From: a virus
IMG/VR virus record: IMGVR_UViG_3300045020_000037
Span: 1-27,023 of that record
DNA: 27,023 nucleotides
Strand: one strand, 5' to 3'
The translations under genes and the position numbers were made by a program. This document shows positions 1,989 through 14,118 of this stretch, in pieces (position 1 is the stretch's first letter; each line of letters starts with the position of its first letter). Below the pieces are notes generated by a model, which saw only the letters and a list, made by a program, of their open reading frames with translations, searched no databases and was not told the DNA's origin.

Positions 1989-2465
1989 GTGCCGATTCTC
2001 CGCAATGCCAAACACGAGCGCTTCTGCCATGCCGTCGTCGATGGTCAAGCTACTACAAAGGCATACGAATTCGCTGGCTTCAAACCCGATCGCGGCAATG
2101 CGTCAACGTTACGGAGCAAGGACAGCATAGTACGACGCATAGGTGAGTTGTTTGAGGAAAGGCAACGTGAGCGTGATCGTGAGATCAAAAAGGCTACAGA
2201 AAAAGCCGCTTTTGATCGTGCGGACGTAATTAAGCGCTTAATTCACTTATCGGTAGTTGCCGAAAAGGACGAGCAACACGGCCCCGCAGTGCGAGCAATG
2301 GAATTGCTCGGCAAGGAACTCGGGATGTTCATCGACCGTCAGTTGCGCAAGGATACCGACGACATCTTTGAGACGATGGATGACGCGGAGCTGCGGCGGT
2401 TGGCGTTGGAGAGGGCGCGTCAGTTGTCGAGCGACGACAGCGAATCGGATGCGACGCGGCACTGA
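1989..2465 (+). CDS. Terminase small subunit
   Basis: The protein recognises the phage DNA packaging site and hands it to the large terminase. The N-terminus has the usual small-terminase layout: a short lead with LRNAKHERFCHAVVDG, a helix-turn-helix-like stretch (TTKAYEFAGFKPDRGNAS), then a long charged coiled-coil segment (EERQRERDREIKKATEK) for oligomerisation. The C-terminus is acidic (SSDDSESDATRH). I prefer the GTG at 1989 (MPILRNAKHERF, 158 residues), which matches typical family starts; a GTG at 1971 would add six residues. It lies one gap upstream of the large subunit. Codon use is more AT-rich than in the large subunit. Confidence 0.8.
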   Translation: MPILRNAKHERFCHAVVDGQATTKAYEFAGFKPDRGNASTLRSKDSIVRRIGELFEERQRERDREIKKATEKAAFDRADVIKRLIHLSVVAEKDEQHGPAVRAMELLGKELGMFIDRQLRKDTDDIFETMDDAELRRLALERARQLSSDDSESDATRH

Positions 2466-2472
2466 GGTCGAC

Positions 2473-2488
2473 ACACTATATATAGTGT
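2473..2488. promoter_or_regulatory. Perfect 16-bp AT-centred palindrome
   Basis: ACACTATATATAGTGT is a perfect palindrome 8 bases after the small terminase stop. An adjoining inverted repeat, TCGGAC (2488-2493) with GTCCGA (2505-2510), follows. It could be an operator or a regulator's binding site at the start of the 354-base gap before the large terminase. No neighbouring consensus promoter is seen. Confidence 0.4.
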
Positions 2489-2585
2489 CGGACGCTCCGC
2501 AACTGTCCGAAACGGCGATACAACCGAGCGCTCGACAAGAATTGCCAATGATATCAATGGGTGATGATGGCGCGTAAGGTCCATT

Positions 2586-2711
2586 ATGGAAAATCGCACT
2601 GCACAACGAACGGAAGCGGTACGCCAGCACAGGTTGTGCGGGGTCGATTCGGCCGGGGACCCGGATGCCAGAGAGACGGTGGGGGCCGGCCAGAGCGACG
2701 GGACTCCTTGA
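2586..2711 (+). CDS. Possible 41-residue ORF in the terminase gap
   Basis: In the 2466-2819 gap an ATG at 2586, preceded by an AAGG-type ribosome site, opens a 41-residue frame. It begins MENRTAQRTEAVRQHR and ends in an acidic Gly/Asp-rich tail. The composition (soluble, charged, helical start) looks more natural than the 88-residue frame at 2567-2830 that overlaps it, but neither is recognised. The rest of the gap holds a CCGGG/CCCGG hairpin (2653-2664) and an AT-rich patch near 2750-2775, with no clear promoter. Confidence 0.3.
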   Translation: MENRTAQRTEAVRQHRLCGVDSAGDPDARETVGAGQSDGTP

Positions 2712-2819
2712 GGCTGGCGCGAACTCCCTCCGCATCCGCGCTGATTTCGTACAAAATTTTTTGGGCGATAAATCCCGAAGAAACCGACAGTCTCGTGATC
2801 TTCGCGCAACTTGGCGGCG

Positions 2820-4457
2820 ATGAGCGCTGATCTCTCGACATTGGGCCGAGCTGGCTTGCTGGCGTTTCTGCGGGCTGACGCGGCATTGCGGCGGCGGCAG
2901 GAGAAGCGGGCGGCCGAGGAGAGCCTGTACGAGTTCGTGGCGCTGATGTGGCACGCGGTTGAGCCGGAGACGCCGTTTGTGGGCGGGTGGGTCTTGGAGG
3001 CGGAATGCCGGCATTTGGAGGCGGTGACTGACGGCGAGGTGACGCGGCTGCTGATGAATGTGCCGCCGGGGAGCACCAAGAGCCTGCTGACGAGCGTGTT
3101 TTGGCCGGCGTGGGAATGGGGGCCGCGCCGGCGACCGCACCTGCGGTATCTGTGCTGTGCGTATGCCGGGCACTTGACCTTGCGGGACAACCGGCGGTTC
3201 AAGTCGGTAATCGAGGACGAGGTTTACCAGCGGTATTGGGGCGACGTGTTCCGGCCGCGAGCCGACATGTACTCGACTGTTCAGGTCGGGAACGACAAGA
3301 CGGGATGGAAGCTGGCCTCGTCGGTTGGGGGTGTGGGGACCGGGGAGCGGGCTGACCGGGTGATCATCGACGACCCGAACAACCCGCTGGAGGTCGAGTC
3401 GGAATTGATCATGAAGTCGACGACGACGTGGTTTCGCGAGGTCATGCCGGATCGGTTGAACGATCTCCAGCGGTCGGCGATCGTGGTCATTCAGCAGCGC
3501 ACGCACGACATGGATGTATCTGGGACGATCCTCGAGCTGGGGTTGCCGTACTGCCATCTGTCGATCCCGATGCGGTTCGACGTGCAGCGCCGGATATTGG
3601 CGACGGATGTCGGATGGGTCGACCCGCGAGCACTGGACGGGGATGGGGAAATCCTGCCGGGGCTGGCGGACGACGGCACGGTTATGCAGGGCTCGCCGCT
3701 GGCCGAGCGGGATGGGCTGCTGGCATGGCCCGAACGTTTTACCGAGGACGCGCTGCGAGAGTTGGAGGAAGCCAAGGGTTCCTACGCTTGGTCATCACAA
3801 TACCAGATGCTTCCGGTGCCGCGCGGCCAGGGGATCATCCCGGAGCACTATTGGCAATTGTGGGCGCGTGAGGAGTTTCCCGAGTACGGGACGTGCGTGG
3901 CGTCGCTCGACACGGCGTATGAGGAGCATGCCGAAGCAGATTACAATGCGCTGACGGTGTGGGCGGCGTTTGAAGACCCGGAGAGCGGGCGGCCGAAGCT
4001 GATGCTGCGGGATGCGTGGCAGGTGCGGTGCAAGCTTGCCGAGCTGGTCAAGCGCGTGATCGCGAGCTGCCGGGAGCACAAGGTCGACCGGCTATTGATC
4101 GAGAAAAAGACGCGCGGGACCGATGTGCGGGACGAGATCGAGCGCTTGACGCGCGGACGCGAGTTCGGCATTGAGTTGATTCTGCCGTCCGGCGACAAGG
4201 TATCGCGACTGAACGCGTGCCAGGCGATTTTCGAGAACAAGGTCATCTATGCGCCGGACAAGGAATGGGCGGATATGGTGATCCGGCAGGTGGCGGCATT
4301 CCCCTACGGGCGGCACGACGACTTGGTGGACACCTGCTCGATGGCCCTGATCTACCTGCGGGCGCACGGCGTTGCAGTGCGACGCGAGGAGCACGACATG
4401 ATGGTGACGGAGCGGCGCCGGTATCAGAAGCCATTGGCGGCGATTTACGATGTCTGA
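2820..4457 (+). CDS. Terminase large subunit (packaging ATPase-nuclease)
   Basis: This motor protein pumps phage DNA into the prohead and cuts it. Residues about 82-88 (PPGSTKS within MNVPPGSTKS) form the Walker A-type loop. Residues about 181-186 (VIIDDP) form Walker B with the catalytic acidic residue. The C-terminal RNase H-like nuclease has its first Asp in SLDTAYEE, a middle acidic segment near LIEKKTRGTD and the final HDDLVD motif near residue 499. The length (545 residues) is normal. ATG 2820 (MSADLSTLGR) is chosen over the TTG at 2811. Its TGA overlaps the next gene by 8 bases at a sequence repeated 458 bp downstream. Confidence 0.95.
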   Translation: MSADLSTLGRAGLLAFLRADAALRRRQEKRAAEESLYEFVALMWHAVEPETPFVGGWVLEAECRHLEAVTDGEVTRLLMNVPPGSTKSLLTSVFWPAWEWGPRRRPHLRYLCCAYAGHLTLRDNRRFKSVIEDEVYQRYWGDVFRPRADMYSTVQVGNDKTGWKLASSVGGVGTGERADRVIIDDPNNPLEVESELIMKSTTTWFREVMPDRLNDLQRSAIVVIQQRTHDMDVSGTILELGLPYCHLSIPMRFDVQRRILATDVGWVDPRALDGDGEILPGLADDGTVMQGSPLAERDGLLAWPERFTEDALRELEEAKGSYAWSSQYQMLPVPRGQGIIPEHYWQLWAREEFPEYGTCVASLDTAYEEHAEADYNALTVWAAFEDPESGRPKLMLRDAWQVRCKLAELVKRVIASCREHKVDRLLIEKKTRGTDVRDEIERLTRGREFGIELILPSGDKVSRLNACQAIFENKVIYAPDKEWADMVIRQVAAFPYGRHDDLVDTCSMALIYLRAHGVAVRREEHDMMVTERRRYQKPLAAIYDV

Positions 4458-4460
4458 GCG
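4448..4460 (+). repeat. Left copy of 13-bp direct repeat
   Basis: CGATGTCTGAGCG spans the large terminase stop and the next gene's start, encoding ...DV-stop in one frame and MSER in the other. An identical copy at 4906-4918 performs the same stop/start role. The pair brackets a two-gene AT-rich cassette. Confidence 0.8.
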
Positions 4461-4710
4461 TGATCTAGAGCGTGATCTAGAGCTTCCCCATAATACACAG
4501 TTAGTGGAACGGGTACAAAAGGACATAGACGAAACTGATGAGAGGGGTCGCGCAGAATGGTTGCGGCAGGCGTCGGCCGCGACCAGAGATTTTACTGTCG
4601 CCGAGGCAATAACATTCATTGCGTTGAAAGAAAAGATATCGGCTAGAGTGGCGCTTCGTATTATTTTAGAGAAAATTATCTATCCAGAGGAGGCGCGTTA
4701 CGATGCCTGA
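4450..4710 (+). CDS. Unknown 86-residue cassette protein
   Basis: The protein starts MSERDLERDLELPHNTQ; the repeated RDLE comes from a tandem 12-bp duplication (4456-4479). It is charged and helical, without a recognised domain; residues about 40-75 (ATRDFTVAEAITFIALKEK) could form a small helical bundle. The gene overlaps the large terminase by 8 bases. It is clearly more AT-rich than the neighbouring structural genes, with many A/T third positions, which suggests a separate origin. With the next gene it forms a cassette bounded by 13-bp direct repeats. Function unknown. Confidence 0.65.
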   Translation: MSERDLERDLELPHNTQLVERVQKDIDETDERGRAEWLRQASAATRDFTVAEAITFIALKEKISARVALRIILEKIIYPEEARYDA

Positions 4711-4915
4711 CCACGAGTGGCATTATGAGACCTACGGTGTTGCGATTCGGATCACCGATAGTGGTCAAAAGTCACTCTCGCAAGGCGGTCGCGGCTCATT
4801 GGCGCTAATGGAATACCAAATCAGGCGCACTCAGGAAAAGCGCCGGCGGCAGATGGAGCGGGATATGGCGCGATGCTTGTTCGCTGGGTATAACCCGAGA
4901 TATGTCGATGTCTGA
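4703..4915 (+). CDS. Unknown 70-residue basic protein
   Basis: A strong AGGAGG ribosome site 9 bases upstream supports the ATG at 4703. The protein has a short beta-like N-terminus (HEWHYETYGVAIRITDSG) followed by a long basic helix (QIRRTQEKRRRQMERDMAR). The basic helix could contact nucleic acid or an acidic partner, but no family is recognised. It overlaps the upstream gene by 8 bases and ends NPRYVDV, using the second copy of the 13-bp repeat as its stop/start junction. It is the second member of the AT-rich cassette. Confidence 0.65.
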   Translation: MPDHEWHYETYGVAIRITDSGQKSLSQGGRGSLALMEYQIRRTQEKRRRQMERDMARCLFAGYNPRYVDV

Positions 4916-4918
4916 GCG
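4906..4918 (+). repeat. Right copy of 13-bp direct repeat
   Basis: Identical to 4448-4460 (CGATGTCTGAGCG). It carries the stop of the 70-residue gene and the ATG (4908) of the next gene, which, like the gene at the left copy, begins MSER. Confidence 0.8.
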
Positions 4919-5102
4919 CCGCTACATCACGATCGGGACGCAATTGGTCGACGACCCTTACAGCGCCACCACGGCGACCGAAGTCCTGATGCCCGAGGAT
5001 GACCGTCCGCAGCCGACGGGGCTGTTCGATGCGCTGGGACGGCAACTCTACCGGGTGCGCGACACAGTGCCGATCGGGTTTCACGGAAGGGCTAAGGCAT
5101 GA
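4908..5102 (+). CDS. Unknown 64-residue protein
   Basis: ATG 4908 (MSERRYITIGTQLVDDPY) is chosen because it matches the repeat-junction start used after the large terminase; an in-frame ATG at 4902 adds two residues. The protein has a beta-like front half and a C-terminal stretch (LFDALGRQLYRVRDTVPIGF). No family is recognised. Codon use is high-G+C like the terminase, unlike the two genes before it. It overlaps the next gene by four bases (ATGA). It was probably the original gene following the large terminase. Confidence 0.65.
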   Translation: MSERRYITIGTQLVDDPYSATTATEVLMPEDDRPQPTGLFDALGRQLYRVRDTVPIGFHGRAKA

Positions 5103-5455
5103 GCCGCAACGGCACGCCGCCGGATATCCCGGAACTGGAGATTGCGGGGCATATCGCCGAACGTCTCCGGCCGGGAACGCCCGGTGGCGCACAACCGTCG
5201 TGCGAGGCCTGCGATTTCATGCGCCGCGAGGGCAATGCGATGCGGTGCTACTATGAGCCCCCGACGCCGATGTTGATCGCGACCGTCCCGAGCAAGATCG
5301 CGGGCGGCCCTCCGCAGCTCGTCATCGCCGGCCTGTCGCCGGAAGTCCATGCGGCGCGGTTCTGCCGGCATCATCCGATGCTGGAGGGGCGGGCGCTCGG
5401 GCCATTGGGGGCAGCCCCAATGTCGCCCGGCTACGGTGCGGAATCGCCGAATTGA
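5099..5455 (+). CDS. Small Cys4 protein, unknown
   Basis: This 118-residue protein contains Cys35-x2-Cys38, Cys50 and Cys89, the last in FCRHH. The set could bind zinc or an iron-sulphur cluster. The middle (PPTPMLIATVPSKIAGG) is beta-like and the end is Gly/Pro-rich. No named family is recognised. The ATGA junction with the upstream gene and the TTGA junction with the head-tail adaptor place it inside the tightly coupled late operon. A virion or assembly role is possible. Confidence 0.65.
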   Translation: MSRNGTPPDIPELEIAGHIAERLRPGTPGGAQPSCEACDFMRREGNAMRCYYEPPTPMLIATVPSKIAGGPPQLVIAGLSPEVHAARFCRHHPMLEGRALGPLGAAPMSPGYGAESPN

Positions 5456-6174
5456 ACTACGCCGACAACCTGATGTTTTTGATGCAGTACACGGGCGACA
5501 GCGGGTACGCGGCGAATACCGACTGGCTCGCCCAGATACCAGCCTTCATCTTTTCGGCCGAAAACCGCATCCTGCGCGACCTCGACCTGTTGGCGGCGCG
5601 CGTGACCGATTCGTCGGCGCAGATGACGCCGAACAGCCGCATCTTCTTCCTGCCGACGATGATCGGGACGTTCCAGGTCGTCGAGACGATCGCCCTGATC
5701 GACCAGAACGGCTACCATCACGCGCCGTTGTTGCCGGTGTCGAAAGAATTGCTGGACGCGATGTATCCGAACGAGGGCGCGGTCGGCGACCCCAGCATTC
5801 CGCGCTACTGGGCGCCTTATACCGACACGGCGGTCCTCGTCGGGCCGGCCCCGGGCTTCGACTTTTTCGTCCAAGTCTACGGCGTGCAGCGCCCGGCGCC
5901 GCTGAGCGCGTCCAATCCCGACACCTTCATCTCGGTCAACCTGCCGGACTTGATGCTTGCTGCCGAGATGATCGATTCGTCGGCATGGTGCAAGAATTTC
6001 GGCGCGATGTCCGACAACCCTGCTCAGGCGCGCGACTGGAACCAGGAATACGAACGCCTGAAAGGCATAGCCAATGTTTGGGAGCTTCGGCGCAAGGTTC
6101 AGTCGAGCGGATGGTCTACCCGGATGCCGAACCCGGTAGCGAGGCCAGTTCCGGCTCGACCGGCTGCGGCTTGA
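5452..6174 (+). CDS. Head-tail adaptor, SU10-type
   Basis: The protein resembles the phage adaptor family typified by phage SU10, which forms the ring beneath the portal to which the tail attaches. Support comes from the start MNYADNLMFLMQYTGD, the helical IPAFIFSAENRILRDLDL segment near residue 30, and the later QVYGVQRPAPLSASNPDTF with LAAEMIDSSAW, a helix-turn-helix-like pattern seen in such adaptors. The length (240 residues) fits. The start is a TTG overlapping the previous TGA, so it probably depends on coupled translation. It precedes the gp10-like protein, as expected for tail machinery. The family assignment is from memory of conserved patterns. Confidence 0.65.
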   Translation: MNYADNLMFLMQYTGDSGYAANTDWLAQIPAFIFSAENRILRDLDLLAARVTDSSAQMTPNSRIFFLPTMIGTFQVVETIALIDQNGYHHAPLLPVSKELLDAMYPNEGAVGDPSIPRYWAPYTDTAVLVGPAPGFDFFVQVYGVQRPAPLSASNPDTFISVNLPDLMLAAEMIDSSAWCKNFGAMSDNPAQARDWNQEYERLKGIANVWELRRKVQSSGWSTRMPNPVARPVPARPAAA

Positions 6175-6237
6175 CAAATCTGCAGTTTCGTTTGAGGGCA
6201 TAACTCCCCGCCGTTGGTACCCGAGGGAGAAGCGCGC

Positions 6238-6297
6238 GTGAGCCGCAAGGGGACAGGAACACCGATCGGCTCCGCGCGCTGTTCGCCGTGCCGTTAG
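6238..6297 (+). CDS. Possible 19-residue leader peptide
   Basis: A GTG at 6238 follows a very good ribosome site (GAGGGAGA) and opens a 19-codon frame (MSRKGTGTPIG...CSPCR). It stops with TAG at 6295-6297, overlapping the GTG of the tail gene at 6288. The tail gene itself has no clear ribosome site, so this may be a coupling leader. The rest of the 6175-6287 spacer shows nothing definite. Confidence 0.25.
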   Translation: MSRKGTGTPIGSARCSPCR

Positions 6298-7712
6298 TCT
6301 CGATCAAGCTGAAACCCGGCATAAATTCCGTTCAGACGCCCACGCTCAATGAATCGGGCTGGGTCAGCGGCTCGAATATCCGGTTCTTTCAGGGCTTGAT
6401 GCAGAAGGATGCGGGGTTCGTCGACCTGTTCACCAGCACGGCCGGCATCATCAAGGCCCTAAAGGCATGGACGGCGCTGTCGGGGCAGTCATACCTTGGT
6501 GTCGGCGCGCAGAACGCCCTTCAACTTTGGAACGGTTCCACTTTAACCGACATCACGCCGTCGTCGGGATGGGCGATGCCGGCGGCAATCGTCACGCTCG
6601 ACAACTGGGGCGAGTTCCTGATGGCTTGCGCGCAAGCCGGTCAGATTTTTGTCTGGCAACCCGAGCTTGGGGGTCCGGCGCTCCCGATCGGCGGCGAGGC
6701 GCCCGCGCAGGTCGGTTTCATCTTTGTTGCGACACAGGAACAGCAGCTGGTTGCCTGCGGCAGCACGAACGAGACGACCTTCACTTACGACCCGATGCTC
6801 AACAGCTGGTCGGATGTCGGAGACTACACGACTTGGACGGCGGCGGCGGACAACGAGGCCGGGACTTTCCGGCTGGCGATTGGATCGGCCCAGCGTGCTG
6901 GCCTCGCGATGGTCGGGCAGAACCTGCTCTGGACCGATACGGCCCTCTATTCGATGTCCTACATCCAGCCTCCGCTGGTTTACGGCTTTGTGCCGCTGGG
7001 AGTGAACTGCGGAGCCGACGGCCCCCATGCGGTCGGCATTCTGGCCGGTCAGATTGCCTGGAAAGGGCCAAACCAGTTCTTCACCCTTGGCCCCGCCGGC
7101 CCCCAACAGATCGAATGCCCGGTCTGGGATCAGGTGTTCCCGAACCAAGACCCGGAGAACCTGATCAACACGACCTGCCAGACCGACAGCTACTACGGTG
7201 AAATCGGCTGGATGGTATTGCAGCTTTCGGGCGAGTACGTCTTTGCGCGGGTCAATCTCGCGACCGGCGCCTGGACGGTGGATGTCTATCACCCGCACAC
7301 GGCCTGGATCGACCAGAGTGTGTTCGGGGCGCCGATCGGCGGTCATTCGACGGGATTAGTCGATCAACACGATATCGGTTATGACGCCAATGGTGCGCCA
7401 GCCGCGTGGAACGCTATGACCGGCGTTATGATGCTCTCGGAAGGCACGCAGGTCATATTCGTGCAGGATTTTCTTCCCGATATTGCTGCCCAAGGAACCG
7501 CTCCGACGATCCAATGGACATTCTTTTTTTATGATTACCCGAATTCGCCGCCGCGCTCTCACGGGCCGTTCGTAACCACACAATCGACGCCCGTCATCCA
7601 TCCACGCGGACGCGGGAGGGGATTTCAAATCCAGATAGCCGGCAATGACGTGGGCACATTTGCGCGCCTTGGAAATTGCCGCTATCGCGGCAGCCCGGAT
7701 GGGGGCAGATGA
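6288..7712 (+). CDS. Tail stabilisation / nozzle protein, P22 gp10-like
   Basis: This 474-residue protein matches the length of P22 gp10 (about 472), which plugs the portal channel after packaging and forms part of the tail hub. The N-terminus carries the pattern KLKPGIN...ESGWVSGSNIRFF...KDAGF, seen in podovirus tail proteins of this class. The C-terminus ends with an HPRGRGRG strand and RLGNCRYRGSPDGGR, also typical. The body is Trp/Gly-rich beta sheet, consistent with a propeller-like fold. GTG 6288 is the start. The last 180 bases are more AT-rich. Gene order after the adaptor fits. Confidence 0.75.
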   Translation: MPLVSIKLKPGINSVQTPTLNESGWVSGSNIRFFQGLMQKDAGFVDLFTSTAGIIKALKAWTALSGQSYLGVGAQNALQLWNGSTLTDITPSSGWAMPAAIVTLDNWGEFLMACAQAGQIFVWQPELGGPALPIGGEAPAQVGFIFVATQEQQLVACGSTNETTFTYDPMLNSWSDVGDYTTWTAAADNEAGTFRLAIGSAQRAGLAMVGQNLLWTDTALYSMSYIQPPLVYGFVPLGVNCGADGPHAVGILAGQIAWKGPNQFFTLGPAGPQQIECPVWDQVFPNQDPENLINTTCQTDSYYGEIGWMVLQLSGEYVFARVNLATGAWTVDVYHPHTAWIDQSVFGAPIGGHSTGLVDQHDIGYDANGAPAAWNAMTGVMMLSEGTQVIFVQDFLPDIAAQGTAPTIQWTFFFYDYPNSPPRSHGPFVTTQSTPVIHPRGRGRGFQIQIAGNDVGTFARLGNCRYRGSPDGGR

Positions 7713-8011
7713 TGGCTTACGCACTACTGAAAATTTTCGGGGATGAGAAAGGCATCAGGGCAGCCTATGACGCCAATCCATCGGTAATCAAGAGATGCAT
7801 AGAAGAAGAAATAGCTGCCCATGCACCACTGCTGCCGCGCGACTATGTCTCGCGCGAATATATGATGATGTTGCGGCGCGTGCTTGGTATTCACGGAGAA
7901 AACCTTCATCAGCAGCATGAGAAGCAAATGCGGGACGCATTGGCGAGGGCGGGCATTACGAAAGAAACGGTCCTGGCCAATATCCAGACCGAGCTGGCGA
8001 AGAAGTCCTGA
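7709..8011 (+). CDS. Unknown 100-residue helical protein
   Basis: ATG 7709 forms an ATGA junction with the gp10-like stop; ATG 7712 is an alternative. The protein (MMAYALLKIFGDEKGIRAAY...) is highly helical with many charged residues and a Met run (REYMMMLRRVLG). The C-terminus (TKETVLANIQTELAKKS) is a further helix. No family is recognised. Base composition is more AT-rich than the flanking structural genes, suggesting a later insertion. It could be a small tail chaperone or an unrelated accessory gene; position alone does not decide. Confidence 0.6.
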   Translation: MMAYALLKIFGDEKGIRAAYDANPSVIKRCIEEEIAAHAPLLPRDYVSREYMMMLRRVLGIHGENLHQQHEKQMRDALARAGITKETVLANIQTELAKKS

Positions 8012-8652
8012 TGTCTGGGGCTCCTGGAGGCGGTGGGCTCGGGGGAGGGGGGCTGTTCTCCGGGCTGGTCACACAACTCAATCTGATTGCCCAGAATCTC
8101 GGGCGCCTCGTCACGCAGACGGCGCTTGCGGTCGTAATCCCGGTCCCGCAGGGCGGCACGGGCGCCACCACGCCAAGCCAGGCGCGCACCAATCTCGAAA
8201 TTACGACGCCGGGCACGCCCAATCACCTGGCGGCCTTCGCGACCGCGAACTCGTTTCAGGACGGCGGTCTTGGCGGTTCCTACCAGCTCGGCGCGCTGCT
8301 TGGGGCAAATTTCAACGTGACGATCGATCAGGCAATCCTAGTCGCGTTGCCTCCGGGAGCCTCCGCTTATGTCATCGAGGCCGTCGTGGCGTCACATGCC
8401 AGCGTGTCGCTGACGACTGCGGTTGGGGGCATCTACCTTGGCCCGAGCAAGACCGGGCTCCAGGTGGTCGCGGCAAGCCAAGCCTATTCGGGGTTGACCG
8501 GGACAGCGATTAACACGGCAGGGAGCGCATTGCCCCTGACGGTTTACCAAGGGGCTTTTTTGAATGTCGGCACAGCGTATTTTTCATTGACAACGCCGCA
8601 GGGTGTTGCCGCCACGGCTGACCTGCGCGTATATGGCAGGGCATTGTTCTAG
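8011..8652 (+). CDS. Short tail-fibre-like protein
   Basis: This 213-residue protein opens with a Gly-rich linker (GGGGLGGGGLFSG) and a hydrophobic helix. It then has the tail-fibre signature VPQGGTGATTPSQARTNL near residue 46, the GGTGAT...ARTNL pattern repeated in many phage fibres. The remainder is Ala/Thr/Gly-rich beta strands, consistent with a trimeric head or tip. It may attach a receptor-binding element to the tail or be a short fibre itself. The ATG shares one base with the previous TGA. No enzymatic motif is seen. Confidence 0.65.
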   Translation: MSGAPGGGGLGGGGLFSGLVTQLNLIAQNLGRLVTQTALAVVIPVPQGGTGATTPSQARTNLEITTPGTPNHLAAFATANSFQDGGLGGSYQLGALLGANFNVTIDQAILVALPPGASAYVIEAVVASHASVSLTTAVGGIYLGPSKTGLQVVAASQAYSGLTGTAINTAGSALPLTVYQGAFLNVGTAYFSLTTPQGVAATADLRVYGRALF

Positions 8653-8695
8653 GAGACAGTCGATTCCGCTCGCGCCAGGACACAGCCGGGGTATC

Positions 8696-9589
8696 GTGAG
8701 CCGGAATATTTCCGAGATGGTTCACAGTGGTCATCCGCAGGCTCAGGCGGTCGCTGCAGCATTGTCCAATGCGCGCCGCCATCCTCATGCGACAGGCGGC
8801 ATCGTCGGTTATCAGGGCGGCGGCGGCATGCCGATCGAGCCCAGCAACACAAACCAGAACCCGATTTCGCAGGGCGTCATCCAGCAGATATCCCAGTTGC
8901 CGACCGAGAAATTGCAGGAGCTGGCGTCCTCCGGCATCGCCGGCCCGCAGACCGCGATCATCCAGCGTGTCCTTCAGGCGCGCCACATGCAGCCGCCAAT
9001 GCCCGCGATGCCGGCCGCTCAGTCGCAGCAGCCTCAGCCCGCAGCCCCCCCTGCAATGCAGGAGGGTGGCGATGTCGACTGGATGGAGGACGCGAAGCTC
9101 GCGCGCAATGTTCCACGTGGAACATCCGGTTTCATCCACTCGCCAGTCCCCGGCCGTACCGACCTGATCAATGCGCAGCCGCTGGTGGGGAGCTATGTCG
9201 TCCCGGCCGATGTCGTCTCGGGTATCGGCGAGGGCAATTCGCTGGCCGGCGCCGCTCTGTTGCAGCGCGCGATGTCTGTCGGGCCTTACGGAGTGCCGCT
9301 GCCGCCGCATCGCGGGGGCGGGGTCGGCATCCCTCGGCCTCCCGCGCGCTTTACCGAGCCTCTGATGGGTCCGGCAGCGGCGCGCGGAGGACGCACCAAG
9401 GAACGCGAGGGCGACCCGACGCCGATCCTCGCGGCCGGCGGCGAGTACATCGTGGCCCCGCATGTCGTGCGCGCGTGGGGAGGTGGCAATTTGAAAAAGG
9501 GCCATGACGTTCTTGACCATTGGGTTGTGAAGAAGCGCAAGGAAATAGCTAAAAAGATGTTGTCATTGCCGCCGCCGAAAAAGAAATGA
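8696..9589 (+). CDS. Virion-associated protein with GG-rich motifs
   Basis: I take the GTG at 8696 (MSRNISEMVHSGHPQAQAVAAALSN, 297 residues) because upstream codons back to 8603 overlap the previous gene. The protein has Gly-rich patches (GGIVGYQGGGG), a Gln/Pro-rich linker, PGRTDLINAQPLVGSYVVPADVVSGIG (quoted in two parts: PGRTDLINAQPL and VGSYVVPADVVSGIG), and near the end GGEYIVAPHVVRAWGGG with a Lys-rich tail. Such GEYV/PADVV motifs occur in internal or tape-like virion proteins of podoviruses. The role is uncertain. Its coding sequence contains the parS-like palindrome at 9108-9125. Confidence 0.65.
   Translation: MSRNISEMVHSGHPQAQAVAAALSNARRHPHATGGIVGYQGGGGMPIEPSNTNQNPISQGVIQQISQLPTEKLQELASSGIAGPQTAIIQRVLQARHMQPPMPAMPAAQSQQPQPAAPPAMQEGGDVDWMEDAKLARNVPRGTSGFIHSPVPGRTDLINAQPLVGSYVVPADVVSGIGEGNSLAGAALLQRAMSVGPYGVPLPPHRGGGVGIPRPPARFTEPLMGPAAARGGRTKEREGDPTPILAAGGEYIVAPHVVRAWGGGNLKKGHDVLDHWVVKKRKEIAKKMLSLPPPKKK
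9108..9125. promoter_or_regulatory. parS: parS-like 18-bp perfect palindrome
   Basis: ATGTTCCACGTGGAACAT is a perfect palindrome whose inner 16 bases fit the broadly conserved bacterial parS consensus TGTTNCACGTGNAACA at every fixed position. ParB binds parS to nucleate DNA partition complexes. The site lies inside a virion gene, around codons 138-143. No parA or parB gene is present in the window, so it may be read by host ParB or by a phage ParB encoded elsewhere. Confidence 0.75.
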
Positions 9590-9780
9590 CAGTTCCGTCG
9601 TCCGATCCTTTGTGGAAAGAAATGCGCGCTGGCATTCGGTCGATTTGGGCGCACAACCCAACCCGCATGCGTGCAGAATTGGGATATTTGGAGAACGCTC
9701 GTCAGCTCAGTCTAATAGACGAGAAAACAAAGGCACGGGGGTCGCTCTGGAAACAATTTCTACGTAATTGTCTGCCATGA
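9586..9780 (+). CDS. Unknown 64-residue protein
   Basis: The ATG at 9586 overlaps the upstream TGA (ATGA). The protein (MTVPSSDPLWKEMRAGIRSI...) is basic and helical, with Trp residues and the segment NPTRMRAELGYLENARQLSL. No family is recognised. It is more AT-rich than its neighbours and overlaps the acetyltransferase start by four bases. A small accessory or coupling role is possible but not supported by any motif. Confidence 0.55.
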   Translation: MTVPSSDPLWKEMRAGIRSIWAHNPTRMRAELGYLENARQLSLIDEKTKARGSLWKQFLRNCLP

Positions 9781-10307
9781 GCGCCATTCGCAGCATCTTC
9801 GAGCGCGCCGCCGAGGCGAAGCCAGTCACTGGCCCGACCTCGCGTCCCGATGGCGTGCGGATTGCCGTCAAGGCTGACGAGAGGGCGCTCTTCGATTTGC
9901 TGATGACCCGCGCGGCCGAGGAAAATTCGATGGCCCCGGTCAACGAATTCAAGGTGCTCAATGGCATTCAGGTCGCCACGGAGCGCAAGGGCGGCGTAAT
10001 CGGCATTATCGACACGGCCGAGGGCGAGGTTGCCGCATCGGTGTGCCTAGTCATGGCGCAGCTGTGGTACACCGAATCCTGGCACTACGAAGACCTTTGG
10101 TGCTACGTGCATCCCGACCGCCGCAAGGGAGCCAACAATTACGCACAGCGGCTCATCCAGTTCGCGAAGTGGTTCGGCGAGCAAGCCGGCTGCCCCGTGC
10201 TTCTGGGAGTCGCGTCCAATACCCGGACGTTGGGCAAGATCAGACTCTACTCTCGCAATATCCCGCTGATCGGGGCCGCATTCTTGTGGCGAGGGGCAAA
10301 TGGGTAA
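9777..10307 (+). CDS. GNAT-family N-acetyltransferase
   Basis: This 176-residue protein fits the GNAT fold: beta strands around GGVIGIID and VAASVCLVMAQLWYTE, then WCYVHPDRRKGANNYAQRLI, where RRKGAN (residues about 115-120) matches the acetyl-CoA-binding (R/Q)xxGx(G/A) loop, followed by a helix. The C-terminal strand LYSRNIPLIGAAFLW resembles the usual last motif. The enzyme would transfer acetyl from acetyl-CoA to an amine; the substrate is unknown. It sits between virion genes, sharing an ATGA with the preceding gene and 8 bases with the next. ATG 9777 is chosen over TTG 9768. Confidence 0.75.
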   Translation: MSAIRSIFERAAEAKPVTGPTSRPDGVRIAVKADERALFDLLMTRAAEENSMAPVNEFKVLNGIQVATERKGGVIGIIDTAEGEVAASVCLVMAQLWYTESWHYEDLWCYVHPDRRKGANNYAQRLIQFAKWFGEQAGCPVLLGVASNTRTLGKIRLYSRNIPLIGAAFLWRGANG

Positions 10308-13300
10308 AGGGAGCGGCGGGGGCAGCACCAATACGGTTGTACAGAATTCCCAGCCGCCGCAGCAATTCCTCAACGCATACCAAAATGCCGTCACGCAGGC
10401 GCAGGGCGTCGCATCGACCCCGTACCAGCCGTATGGGGGCCAAATCGTAGCGCCGCTGACAGGCTCCCAGCAGGCCGCAATCGCGAACGCCCCGTCCAGC
10501 TCGGGCGATTGGTCGCCTTACGCGGGACAAGCGCAATCTTATCTCGGCCAAGCGACCGGCACAGACTTTGGCGGCACTTTCGCGCCATACGCAAGCAACG
10601 CAATGGACAGCGTGTCCGCTGCGGCGACACCGTTTTATGACACGGTCAACAATTACCTCAGTCCATATGTCGGCGATGTCGTCAATTCCACCGAGCAACA
10701 GTTCAACAACCAGAATGCCATTCAGCAATCGCAGGTGCAGGGCAACGCCGTGTCTCAGGGTGCATGGGGCGGCGACCGATCGGCTGTAGCGCAGGGCATT
10801 GTCGCGGGCCAACAACAGGCGAACGAGGCCCCCGTTATTGCCGGGTTGTACAATTCCGGTTATGGGCAGGCAATGAGCGCTGATGAGGCGCAGGGGCAGC
10901 TCAATTTGGGAGCGGCGCAGACGACGGGCCAGATTGGCTCGCAGATGACAAATGCGCAGGAAGCCAATGCCTGGTTGGCAAGCAACGCCGCTTCGCAGGA
11001 AGGCCAGCTCGGGCTGGAAAACTTCAACGTCGACCAGGGCACCCTCAATCAGGAGATGCAGTTCGGCAGCCTGGCCCAGGCGCAAAATCAAGCAGAACTC
11101 AATGTTCCTTACGAGCAATATCAAGCCAGTCAGGCGTACCCGTTCCAGACGGCGGGGTGGCTCGCCAACATCGAGGAGGGGATAGGGTCGGGGGCTGGCG
11201 GAACGTCGCAGACAACGAGTCCGGGCGCTTCGCCGGTCAGCCAGGCGCTCGGCTTGGGCGTTGGCGGCCTCGGTATCCTCGGCGCCACAGGTGCGTTCGG
11301 GTCGTCGGGCTATCTGACTGGCGCGGGGGGACTTCTCAGTAGTCTTGGCAGCGGCGCGGACATAGCGGGGTTGGGGGCGGACTCCGCCATTGACGCAACC
11401 GGCGTCTCGTCGGCCGCCGACATAGCGTCGGGGTTGCCGCTGCTTTTCAGGCGGGGCGGCGTCGTGCCTCGCCGAGACAATGGCGGCTCGATAGCCGATT
11501 CCGGGACAGCGGCGCTCTTGAATGCAATCAGTGCCACCGGGAAGGCCGATGTCGATGCGCTGCTTCGGGGCGGGATCGTGCGTCGGCAGGGCGGCGGCGA
11601 TGTGCCGACTCAGATTGGCGCGATGCCGTATCAGCAGATGCCGCAGTCGTCCGACGTGCCGAATGTCGGCATCTCGATCGTGCCGCAACTGCCGCAGATG
11701 CGCGGCGGGACCGGGCCTCCGCGACCGCCGCAAGCGGCCCCGAACACGTCGAACCTGACGCCGCAGGGCATCATGGGGATGCTCCAACAGTCGGGCGGCT
11801 TTGGACAGAACGGGTGGCTTGGGCAATTGTCGTCCGGCATCCAGGGGTCGCGCCGTGGCGGAGGGGTCGCGCCGCCGCGCTACCAGGATGGCGGCGACCT
11901 TGTATCCGGGCTGCCGCCGCCCGATCAGCCGACCTATCTCGGAATCTCACCGGACATGCGTTCCGGCAGCGGCCCTCCGGCCCTGGCAGCGGCACCCGCG
12001 CCTTCGGTTCCCGCGTCGGGTCAAAGCGGTGCGGCACCGTCGATACCGGCAGCAGCCCCGCTTGCCGATGTCATCAGCGGCGGCGGTTTGGGACCGTTGG
12101 TCAACCAGGTCATCCGCAACGAGGGCGGCTCGCCCAAAGGTGTTGCCAATAATCCCGGCAACATCAAGTTCGCCGGCCTTCCCGGTCAGGTGGACAGCGG
12201 CGTGCGCGCGACGGATGGTGGCACGTTCGCGTCTTATGCGTCTCCCGAGGACGGCCGCAATGCGGTCGCGCAACTGGCGGTCAACGCCGCGCGAGGCGCC
12301 TCGCCGTCCTACGGAAAGAGCCCGACCGTCGCCTCTTTCATGGATACTTACGAGGGCCACCAGGAAGGCGCCCGTGCATCGCAGACGGGACACTCCGTTG
12401 GAGAGCGACCGAGCAACGGCCCGTTGGGAACGGCGCCCCCAGGAGCGCCCCCGCTTGAAGCGCCAGTTACCAGCGAGCCGGGCGCGGGCGTCGTTCCGTC
12501 TTCGATGCCGTCCGGGGGCATTTCCGGCCAGCCAGCCGGCATGTACTCGCCGGGCGTCAACCCGTGGCTGGCGCTCGCGGCGGCGGGGTTCGCGACGGCT
12601 GCCGGCCGCTCCCCGCAGGCGTTGCAGAATATCGGCGCCGGGATGCTGACCGGGGTGCAGACGCTCGAAAGCGAGCGTGCGGCCCTCCCCGACCAGCAAT
12701 TAAAGCTGGCACAAGGCCAGATGGCGAATCTCCAGGTCCAGAACGCGCAGGCAATGCGGGCCTATTTCAACGGTCAGCATGCCGACCCGTCGCCGGTCGC
12801 CGACCAGCTTGACCGCAACATCGACGCGGCCCGCACAGGTATCGCGAAGTCCGGCGAGACGCAGGCCGTCTCGACGCCGACAGGTGCGATGGCGCCTCTT
12901 GCCGGCACGACGCAAGGGACGCCGTTGTCGACCGACGAACAGGCAATGTCCGGTCAAGTGCAAAGCCAGATCGCCAATATCGACCGGATCATCGCCCAGC
13001 AGTCCGATTTGGCACGGTTTGCGTCGACGCCTGAGCAGATGAGCTCGATGCAGGCGAATTTGGCAAATCTGGCAATCCGGCGCTCGGAACTGTTGAAGGA
13101 AGACCCGGCCTATCTAAGGGCCGCCTCTCAAGCCGAGGGCGAAGGAAAGGTCGGGCCGGCGATCCAGCAGGCTGCCGGCGAGGCCGCCGCCAAGCTGCCG
13201 TACACGGTCACAACCGCGCGGCCGGGCAGCTATATTCTTCAGGGCGGTCAGCCGGTGGCCGCTACGCCGCTTCAGCGGCCGGCGATCGACCCGGCGACCG

Positions 13301-14118
13301 GCAATGAGTATCCGCGTTTCGTGACGCCGCCGTTGCCGGGACAGGTCGCTCCGACAGCGACAGGCGCGACAGGCGCGTCTCCTCCTCCGGCTGGCGCGCA
13401 GGGTGTCCCTCCCAATGGTTCGGCGGCGGCCGGCATTGCGCCGGGTGAGGTTCCGAGCAAGCTGGGTGTCGGACCCGAGACGGCGCTTCGTGAGCGCGCC
13501 GAGGCGGAACAGAAGGACCGCCAGGAGACGATCGAAGGCGGCGAGTCTGCGCAGACGCAACAGGCCATCCTGTCCAGGCTGAAGGACGATGCGCCGCAGT
13601 TCACTCAGGGGCCGTTCGCCGGCTACACGCAGACCGCCAACACCTATCTGCGTGCGCTGTTCGGCACGCAGGCCCCGCAGGTCGCTTCCTACGAGGATTT
13701 TGTCAAGAATGCGGGCTCGCTGACCCGCGCGGCCGTGCGGGAAACGTCATCGCGCGCGGCGGTTCAGGAATTTCGGCTGATCGATGCGACCTTGCCGAGC
13801 CCCGAGATGTCGCCGCAAGGACTGCAACAGGTCATCAACGAGTATCAGGGCCTGAACGACTTTAAGCTCGCCAAGGTGCAGGCTCAGCAGCAATGGGAGC
13901 AGCAGCACGGCGGGATCGGGAACGTTCAGGGTTTCGAGACAGACTGGCAGGCGAAAGTCTCGCCCTATGCCTTCGTGTTCAATCGGATGGACCCGGCCGA
14001 GCAAACCGGGCTTGTCAGCCGGTTGAGCGCAACGCCTGACGGTCGTGCCGAGCTAAGCCATCTTGCTCAGCAGCTTCAATACGCCAAAAGCGCCGGGTTG
14101 GAGCCCTATATTCAGTGA
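10300..14118 (+). CDS. Large internal virion/ejection protein with hydrolase-like segment
   Basis: This 1272-residue protein is probably a tail-lumen or ejected protein. The N-terminal third carries NPYxxxVV/GAWGGDR-type features (NNYLSPYVGDVVNST, then GNAVSQGAWGGDRSAVAQG near residues 149-167), seen in large podovirus structural proteins. Four or more RGG-type patches follow (FRRGGVV, LLRGGIV, SRRGGGV). Residues about 600-690 look like a peptidoglycan lytic domain: VIRNEGG with candidate catalytic Glu608, then NNPGNIKF and FASYASPEDGRNAV. The last third is Gln/Ala-rich helical coil. Start 10300 has a GAGGGG ribosome site. The GTGA junction couples it to the next gene. Hydrolase activity is inferred. 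Confidence 0.7.
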   Translation: MGKGSGGGSTNTVVQNSQPPQQFLNAYQNAVTQAQGVASTPYQPYGGQIVAPLTGSQQAAIANAPSSSGDWSPYAGQAQSYLGQATGTDFGGTFAPYASNAMDSVSAAATPFYDTVNNYLSPYVGDVVNSTEQQFNNQNAIQQSQVQGNAVSQGAWGGDRSAVAQGIVAGQQQANEAPVIAGLYNSGYGQAMSADEAQGQLNLGAAQTTGQIGSQMTNAQEANAWLASNAASQEGQLGLENFNVDQGTLNQEMQFGSLAQAQNQAELNVPYEQYQASQAYPFQTAGWLANIEEGIGSGAGGTSQTTSPGASPVSQALGLGVGGLGILGATGAFGSSGYLTGAGGLLSSLGSGADIAGLGADSAIDATGVSSAADIASGLPLLFRRGGVVPRRDNGGSIADSGTAALLNAISATGKADVDALLRGGIVRRQGGGDVPTQIGAMPYQQMPQSSDVPNVGISIVPQLPQMRGGTGPPRPPQAAPNTSNLTPQGIMGMLQQSGGFGQNGWLGQLSSGIQGSRRGGGVAPPRYQDGGDLVSGLPPPDQPTYLGISPDMRSGSGPPALAAAPAPSVPASGQSGAAPSIPAAAPLADVISGGGLGPLVNQVIRNEGGSPKGVANNPGNIKFAGLPGQVDSGVRATDGGTFASYASPEDGRNAVAQLAVNAARGASPSYGKSPTVASFMDTYEGHQEGARASQTGHSVGERPSNGPLGTAPPGAPPLEAPVTSEPGAGVVPSSMPSGGISGQPAGMYSPGVNPWLALAAAGFATAAGRSPQALQNIGAGMLTGVQTLESERAALPDQQLKLAQGQMANLQVQNAQAMRAYFNGQHADPSPVADQLDRNIDAARTGIAKSGETQAVSTPTGAMAPLAGTTQGTPLSTDEQAMSGQVQSQIANIDRIIAQQSDLARFASTPEQMSSMQANLANLAIRRSELLKEDPAYLRAASQAEGEGKVGPAIQQAAGEAAAKLPYTVTTARPGSYILQGGQPVAATPLQRPAIDPATGNEYPRFVTPPLPGQVAPTATGATGASPPPAGAQGVPPNGSAAAGIAPGEVPSKLGVGPETALRERAEAEQKDRQETIEGGESAQTQQAILSRLKDDAPQFTQGPFAGYTQTANTYLRALFGTQAPQVASYEDFVKNAGSLTRAAVRETSSRAAVQEFRLIDATLPSPEMSPQGLQQVINEYQGLNDFKLAKVQAQQQWEQQHGGIGNVQGFETDWQAKVSPYAFVFNRMDPAEQTGLVSRLSATPDGRAELSHLAQQLQYAKSAGLEPYIQ

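Follow-up and report, generated by a model that had tools for sequence, protein, structure and literature searches.

Two models of phage mosaicism stand side by side, recombination at boundary sequences and illegitimate recombination (PMC3029335, PMC2327257). For the Cluster C1 mycobacteriophages LRRHood and Cali, a difference of 1.35 kb has been described which comprises four genes and is flanked by 29-bp direct repeats that occur as a single copy in close relatives; the authors considered both gain and loss and preferred gain by recombination (PMC3029335). In lambdoid phages, short conserved sequences at gene boundaries serve as recombination points (cited in PMC3029335). T4-like phages lose blocks of genes between direct repeats of 5-10 bp (PMC5449768), and in Cluster K mycobacteriophages a 13-bp start-associated sequence is repeated at gene starts (PMC3203893).

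The locus described here comes from a viral sequence of 27,023 nucleotides (IMG/VR record IMGVR_UViG_3300045020_000037), the whole of which is referred to as the window. As in LRRHood, an extra segment is absent from a close relative and is flanked by a direct repeat (here called the seam) which is found as a single copy at the empty site. The type of event is thus already known from this precedent. However, the genes of LRRHood have known relatives, whereas the segment in the window has 458 bp and carries two orphan genes for which no homologues were found, and its 13-bp repeat is itself a stop/start overlap. The seam resembles the lambdoid boundary sequences in its position but is a stop/start overlap that occurs twice and does not belong to a set of boundaries conserved in numerous phages. 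The deletions in T4-like phages were selected in the laboratory and have imprecise gene ends, while the joint which distinguishes the window from its relative keeps both neighbouring genes intact. The Cluster K sequences are distributed genome-wide at start codons; in contrast, the 13-mer of the window occurs only twice and includes a start codon together with the overlapping stop.

A duplicated stop/start overlap behind the terminase gene

The large terminase gene is found at 2811-4457 on the forward strand, as are all other features of this locus (548 aa; PHROG phrog_38, terminase large subunit, E=3e-75; Pfam Terminase_6C, E=2.9e-5). Its last codons lie inside the first copy of the 13-bp sequence CGATGTCTGAGCG (4448-4460), and a second exact copy is found at 4906-4918, with a start-to-start distance of 458 bp. 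When both strands of the 27 kb were searched, no third exact copy was detected; there is one match with two mismatches, on the other strand at position 13347. Each copy spans an 8-bp stop/start overlap, ATGTCTGA. In the first, the terminase ends with Y-D-V-stop (at 4457) and orfA starts with MSERD (at 4450), while in the second orfB ends with V-D-V-stop (at 4915) and the next gene starts with MSERRYITIG (at 4908). The original prediction, made from the bare sequence, had pointed out these two repeats and their spacing, with DV-stop for one gene and MSER for the next in each copy, and all of this could be read at both positions. The downstream gene (4908-5102, 64 aa), here called the MSERRYITIG gene, has an alternative ATG at 4902 and a weak match to phrog_23102 (function unknown, E=0.0022). 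An assembly artefact is unlikely, as the k-mers used in assembly are usually longer than 13 bp.

The two enclosed genes

The two enclosed genes, orfA (4450-4710, 86 aa) and orfB (4703-4915, 70 aa), were taken from the list of open reading frames. They tile the insert and overlap each other by 8 bp. The prediction that the enclosed pair is more AT-rich than its flanks holds: the insert (4461-4905, 445 bp) has a GC content of 51.2% compared to 62.7% for the window, which places it in the lowest 0.2% of 445-bp stretches, and the GC3 values of orfA (0.46) and orfB (0.62) contrast with those of neighbouring genes (about 0.77-0.83). The start of orfA carries a 12-bp tandem duplication, detected by repeat search, with two copies of GAGCGTGATCTA at 4456-4479 that result in a repeated ERDL. 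A probable ribosome-binding site of orfB, AGAGGAGG, was recognised by reading the sequence (4686-4693, 9 nt upstream of the orfB ATG).

The junction between orfA and orfB, GGAGGCGCGTTACGATGCCTGACC with its ATG at 4703, is likewise an 8-bp overlap, which the original prediction did not mention. At this middle junction (4703-4710, ATGCCTGA), the stop of orfA overlaps the start of orfB, and the sequence resembles the first seam copy. When 4689-4712 is compared with 4436-4459 at the terminase/orfA junction, 19 of the 24 bases match in the same reading frames, the peptide ends at the two junctions being AIYDV-stop and ARYDA-stop. Among pairs of 8-bp-overlap junctions taken from different loci, a likeness of this degree is seen in only about 0.16%. 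It may go back to an earlier insertion into the same seam.

No match to orfA was obtained from Pfam, PHROGs, PADLOC or the phage searches, and nothing meaningful from NCBIfam or the PDB sequences; for orfB, the family, PDB and phage searches gave no match of note. Homologues of note were also absent from phage tblastn, from peptide-pattern scans of viral contigs (which cover close relatives only) and from 385 genomes of the class of G003, a Rhodospirillales bin. A structure prediction for orfA is all-helical at low confidence (pLDDT 61), and a low-confidence model of orfB retrieved no fold match at E<=0.001. No RNA families or tRNAs were found in the window.

As with the morons of mosaic phage genomes, the two genes differ in base composition and are placed between core genes which adjoin in the relative. 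They differ from a classical moron in that a consensus scan of 3900-5600 for terminators and promoters of the sigma-70 type revealed neither promoter-like nor terminator-like sites. The natural reading is therefore that they are co-transcribed with the terminase gene and that translation is coupled through the overlaps, and we infer that orfA and orfB are accessory genes.

A flanking duplication is also expected of a self-mobile element, be it an IS, a homing-endonuclease gene or an element like MPME1/2 of mycobacteriophages, in which case the 13 bp would be a target-site duplication. The MPMEs are insertions of about 440 bp between near-identical phages, and the 445 bp of the insert are similar to the 439 bp of MPME1 (PMC3029335). 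However, terminal inverted repeats, a 6-bp addition and occurrence at multiple sites, as known for MPMEs, are not seen for the window segment. A comparison of the two terminal 60-bp stretches of the insert showed no inverted repeats of at least 6 bp, and protein searches gave no match to a transposase, a nuclease or an MPME. No second copy exists in the window or the related contig, and neither neighbouring gene is disrupted. We consider this explanation highly improbable.

The empty site in the closest relative

The closest relative, IMGVR_UViG_3300027029_000001, has the same operon (94.1% identity on the left and 96.4-96.9% on the right, with 97% for the MSERRYITIG gene in its locus L002). 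The original prediction had stated that recombination across the repeats would remove both genes and join terminase to the downstream gene, and had suggested looking for genomes where the two are directly adjacent. The relative has exactly this joint: its terminase gene is connected straight to the MSERRYITIG gene via a single copy of the 13-mer (...GCGATTTACGATGTCTGAGCGCCGCTACATC..., L002 5005-5017). In the alignment to its locus L210, window 2279-4460 corresponds to L210 5122-7303 and window 4906-10591 to L210 7291-12982, the two blocks overlapping by 13 bp in the relative. The difference is therefore an exact presence or absence of 458 bp with both breakpoints within the repeat; if the first seam copy is kept, the missing segment is 4461-4918. 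Within the four aligned blocks (about 17.6 kb) there are only three other indels of at least 2 bp, all of them multiples of three.

This is the one relative with a clean empty site that the collections searched contain for the lineage of the window, and it rules out the pattern in which all relatives carry both genes with non-repeated junctions. Other genes between copies of this 13-bp repeat, which had also been envisaged, were not found in these collections, nor was a second carrier or a donor of orfA and orfB. Neither gene was detected elsewhere in the contig of the relative or in the next relative; taken alone, this negative result is weak, but a phmmer scan of the ORFs from all loci fetched at that time agrees with it. 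The 15-mer TACGATGTCTGAGCG is present in 47 viral contigs, a number near a rough chance expectation, and in the part of these matches that was inspected no terminase-end seam was recognised beyond the relative.

Within the terminase gene, at 3720-3780 and 4080-4300, there are short patches which are 75-90% identical to the relative amid sequence with 95-100% identity. This patchiness suggests fine-scale recombination within the gene.

Gain or loss

The best outgroup, locus L003, has a terminase of 67-68% identity and is devoid of orfA and orfB. It shares the terminase end TTTACGATGTCTGA with the window and L002 and has the same 8-bp overlap, but its terminase gene is followed by a different 48-aa ORF and then by a relative of the 118-aa gene. 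The terminase-end seam is thus of old date, and the slot up to the 118-aa gene is variable. Gain in the lineage of the window is thus favoured over loss in the relative, though not proven; this polarity rests on few taxa and on an outgroup in which the slot is filled by another ORF. The repeat by itself does not settle the direction.

Our preferred reading, which we regard as rather likely, is that 4461-4918 represents an acquired two-gene accessory cassette, similar to a moron, within a tailed-phage late operon, and that recombination at the 13-bp seam converts the occupied into the empty state and vice versa. The cassette would sit exactly in the stop/start overlap between the terminase gene and the MSERRYITIG gene. 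Through duplication of this overlap, the terminase would keep its own end and the MSERRYITIG gene its own start. The start of orfA (MSER) would then be a borrowed copy of the first codons of the downstream gene, and the end of orfB (DV-stop) a copy of the last codons of the terminase. The cassette may be gained by annealing, template switching or a crossover with a cassette-carrying phage at the seam, and it may be lost by slippage between the two repeats. We infer that the seam was used as homology and that, most recently, the lineage of the window gained the cassette. Several points weaken this reading. No donor was found, so that the reading gives no origin for the right-hand seam copy. A homology of 13 bp is short for ordinary homologous recombination, and the scanned part of the relative's contig encodes no annealing recombinase (a VRR-NUC nuclease, a DnaA C-terminal domain and a methyltransferase are present).

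Alternatively, the cassette may be ancestral: the common ancestor would have carried both genes flanked by the repeats, and the relative would have lost them through slipped mispairing or recombination of the two 13-bp copies. This would be the mechanistically simplest single step, its product would be identical to the observed joint, and T4-like phages under selection have deleted 6.5-10 kb between direct repeats that measure no more than 5-10 bp (PMC5449768). We nevertheless judge loss to be the less likely course, although a serious candidate: it leaves the register-matched 13-bp repeat at both junctions unexplained, the outgroup is devoid of both genes, and their composition is foreign, which an older acquisition would fit too.

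How much of the repeat is forced

A clean insertion of genes into a stop/start overlap must duplicate this overlap, whatever the mechanism. Thus, 8 of the 13 repeated bases are forced, and only the excess of 5 bp informs on how the insertion occurred. At least five extra matching bases beyond the forced eight are expected in about 0.6% of cases (p ~0.006). Among about 1.6 million random breakpoint pairs at distances of 200-1500 bp, the longest repeat was 11 bp and none reached 12 bp or more, but this sampling ignores the forced-overlap constraint. Given the modest 5-bp excess, the seam probably, though not certainly, served as recombination homology. The view that the locus is a clean insertion module with a junction sequence as its seam is supported by the clean and exact presence or absence, with the two reservations that the repeat does not decide the direction and that only 5 of the 13 bp count as evidence for homology at the seam.

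It could also be that constraint and coincidence produced the repeat. Coupled overlaps and common ATG-TCT-GAG starts would then account for it, and the insertion would be illegitimate, with a repeat that never acted as homology. The eight forced bases fit this, as does the recurrence of the ATGTCTGA start context in these phages (47 of 69 occurrences are at gene starts). Moreover, little or no repeat is seen at other insertions directly behind the terminase gene: a 71-aa gene gained or lost between L026 (5273-5498) and L029 (6603) has a repeat of 3 bp, and a 217-aa gene gained or lost between L068 (4371-5071) and L072 one of 6 bp. As the loci were fetched by their terminase, this position is over-sampled. 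The 5-bp excess argues against such an origin, as does the cassette described in the next section, with its larger excess and a repeat copy that is read in another frame. We consider coincidence unlikely.

A comparable cassette in an unrelated phage group

An analogous arrangement was found in an unrelated group of marine phages, called HMO-2011-type according to the matches of the group. In these phages, a 4-bp overlap normally joins two small genes; 31 of 43 distinct loci are of this cassette-free kind with a single seam, and the close relatives have the overlap (ATGA) at TTACAAATGA. In three loci (L180 3215-3973, L192 and L305), a CTP-transferase-like (cytidylyltransferase) gene (PF01467, E=4.7e-14) is located between two copies of TTACAAATGAA across the ATGA overlap; the right-hand copy of L305 differs at one base. 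The inserted gene reads the right-hand copy in a different frame, so that similarity at the protein or coding level cannot explain the repeat. The excess over the overlap is 7 bp (p ~0.0004-0.0013).

In trees of the flanks, the cassette carriers are scattered among non-carriers. For L299, which is on the same contig as L180, the right flank has zero distance from the cassette-free L298 and the left flank is closest to other phages. Crossovers at or close to the seam would give such a pattern, though repeated loss could have contributed to it.

Other gene-scale differences

Among the gene-scale indels between all fetched loci, junction repeats mostly have at most 6 bp, and the 13 bp of the window seam are the longest. 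The relative has an additional 1.29 kb (L211 8157-9439) directly after the gene stop at window 22176, flanked by the 8-bp sequence CATCTAAA which includes the stop. The longest ORF of this segment (247 aa, reverse strand) has no match in PHROGs or Pfam. A further 212 bp with a 72-aa ORF (TTG start) occur in the relative after the portal gene (window 19011, L211 4773-4991), without a clear repeat; the portal gene and the next gene adjoin in the window and in the outgroup. A gene of 1272 aa has internal repeat units which differ in copy number (window 10549-11012, L210 12920-13700).

Overlaps as possible docking sites

More speculatively, and with a likelihood that we put well below even, overlapping stop/start junctions could be general docking seams in phage operons, through which genes enter and leave by way of a duplicated overlap, with repeats longer than required. 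The cassettes of the window and of the HMO-2011-type phages would be two instances, and the middle junction would go back to a previous insertion at the seam of the window.

In a narrow search of the open-access literature, no paper was found which states that the overlap acts as seam with a partly forced repeat. What the present case adds to the known type of event is a seam that coincides with the translational overlap, and a repeat of which one part is obligatory. Comparison of the window with its relative gives a before-and-after view of how genes are gained or lost in a phage operon, in which the breakpoint is narrowed down to 13 bases. It also suggests a reason for the placement of such breakpoints in stop/start overlaps, as both neighbours are spared only when the insertion duplicates the overlap. 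Should repeats in excess of the overlap turn out to be general, one could screen phages with overlapping genes for seam cassettes at their mosaic junctions, and the old dispute over homology-guided versus illegitimate recombination at gene boundaries could be addressed by counting.
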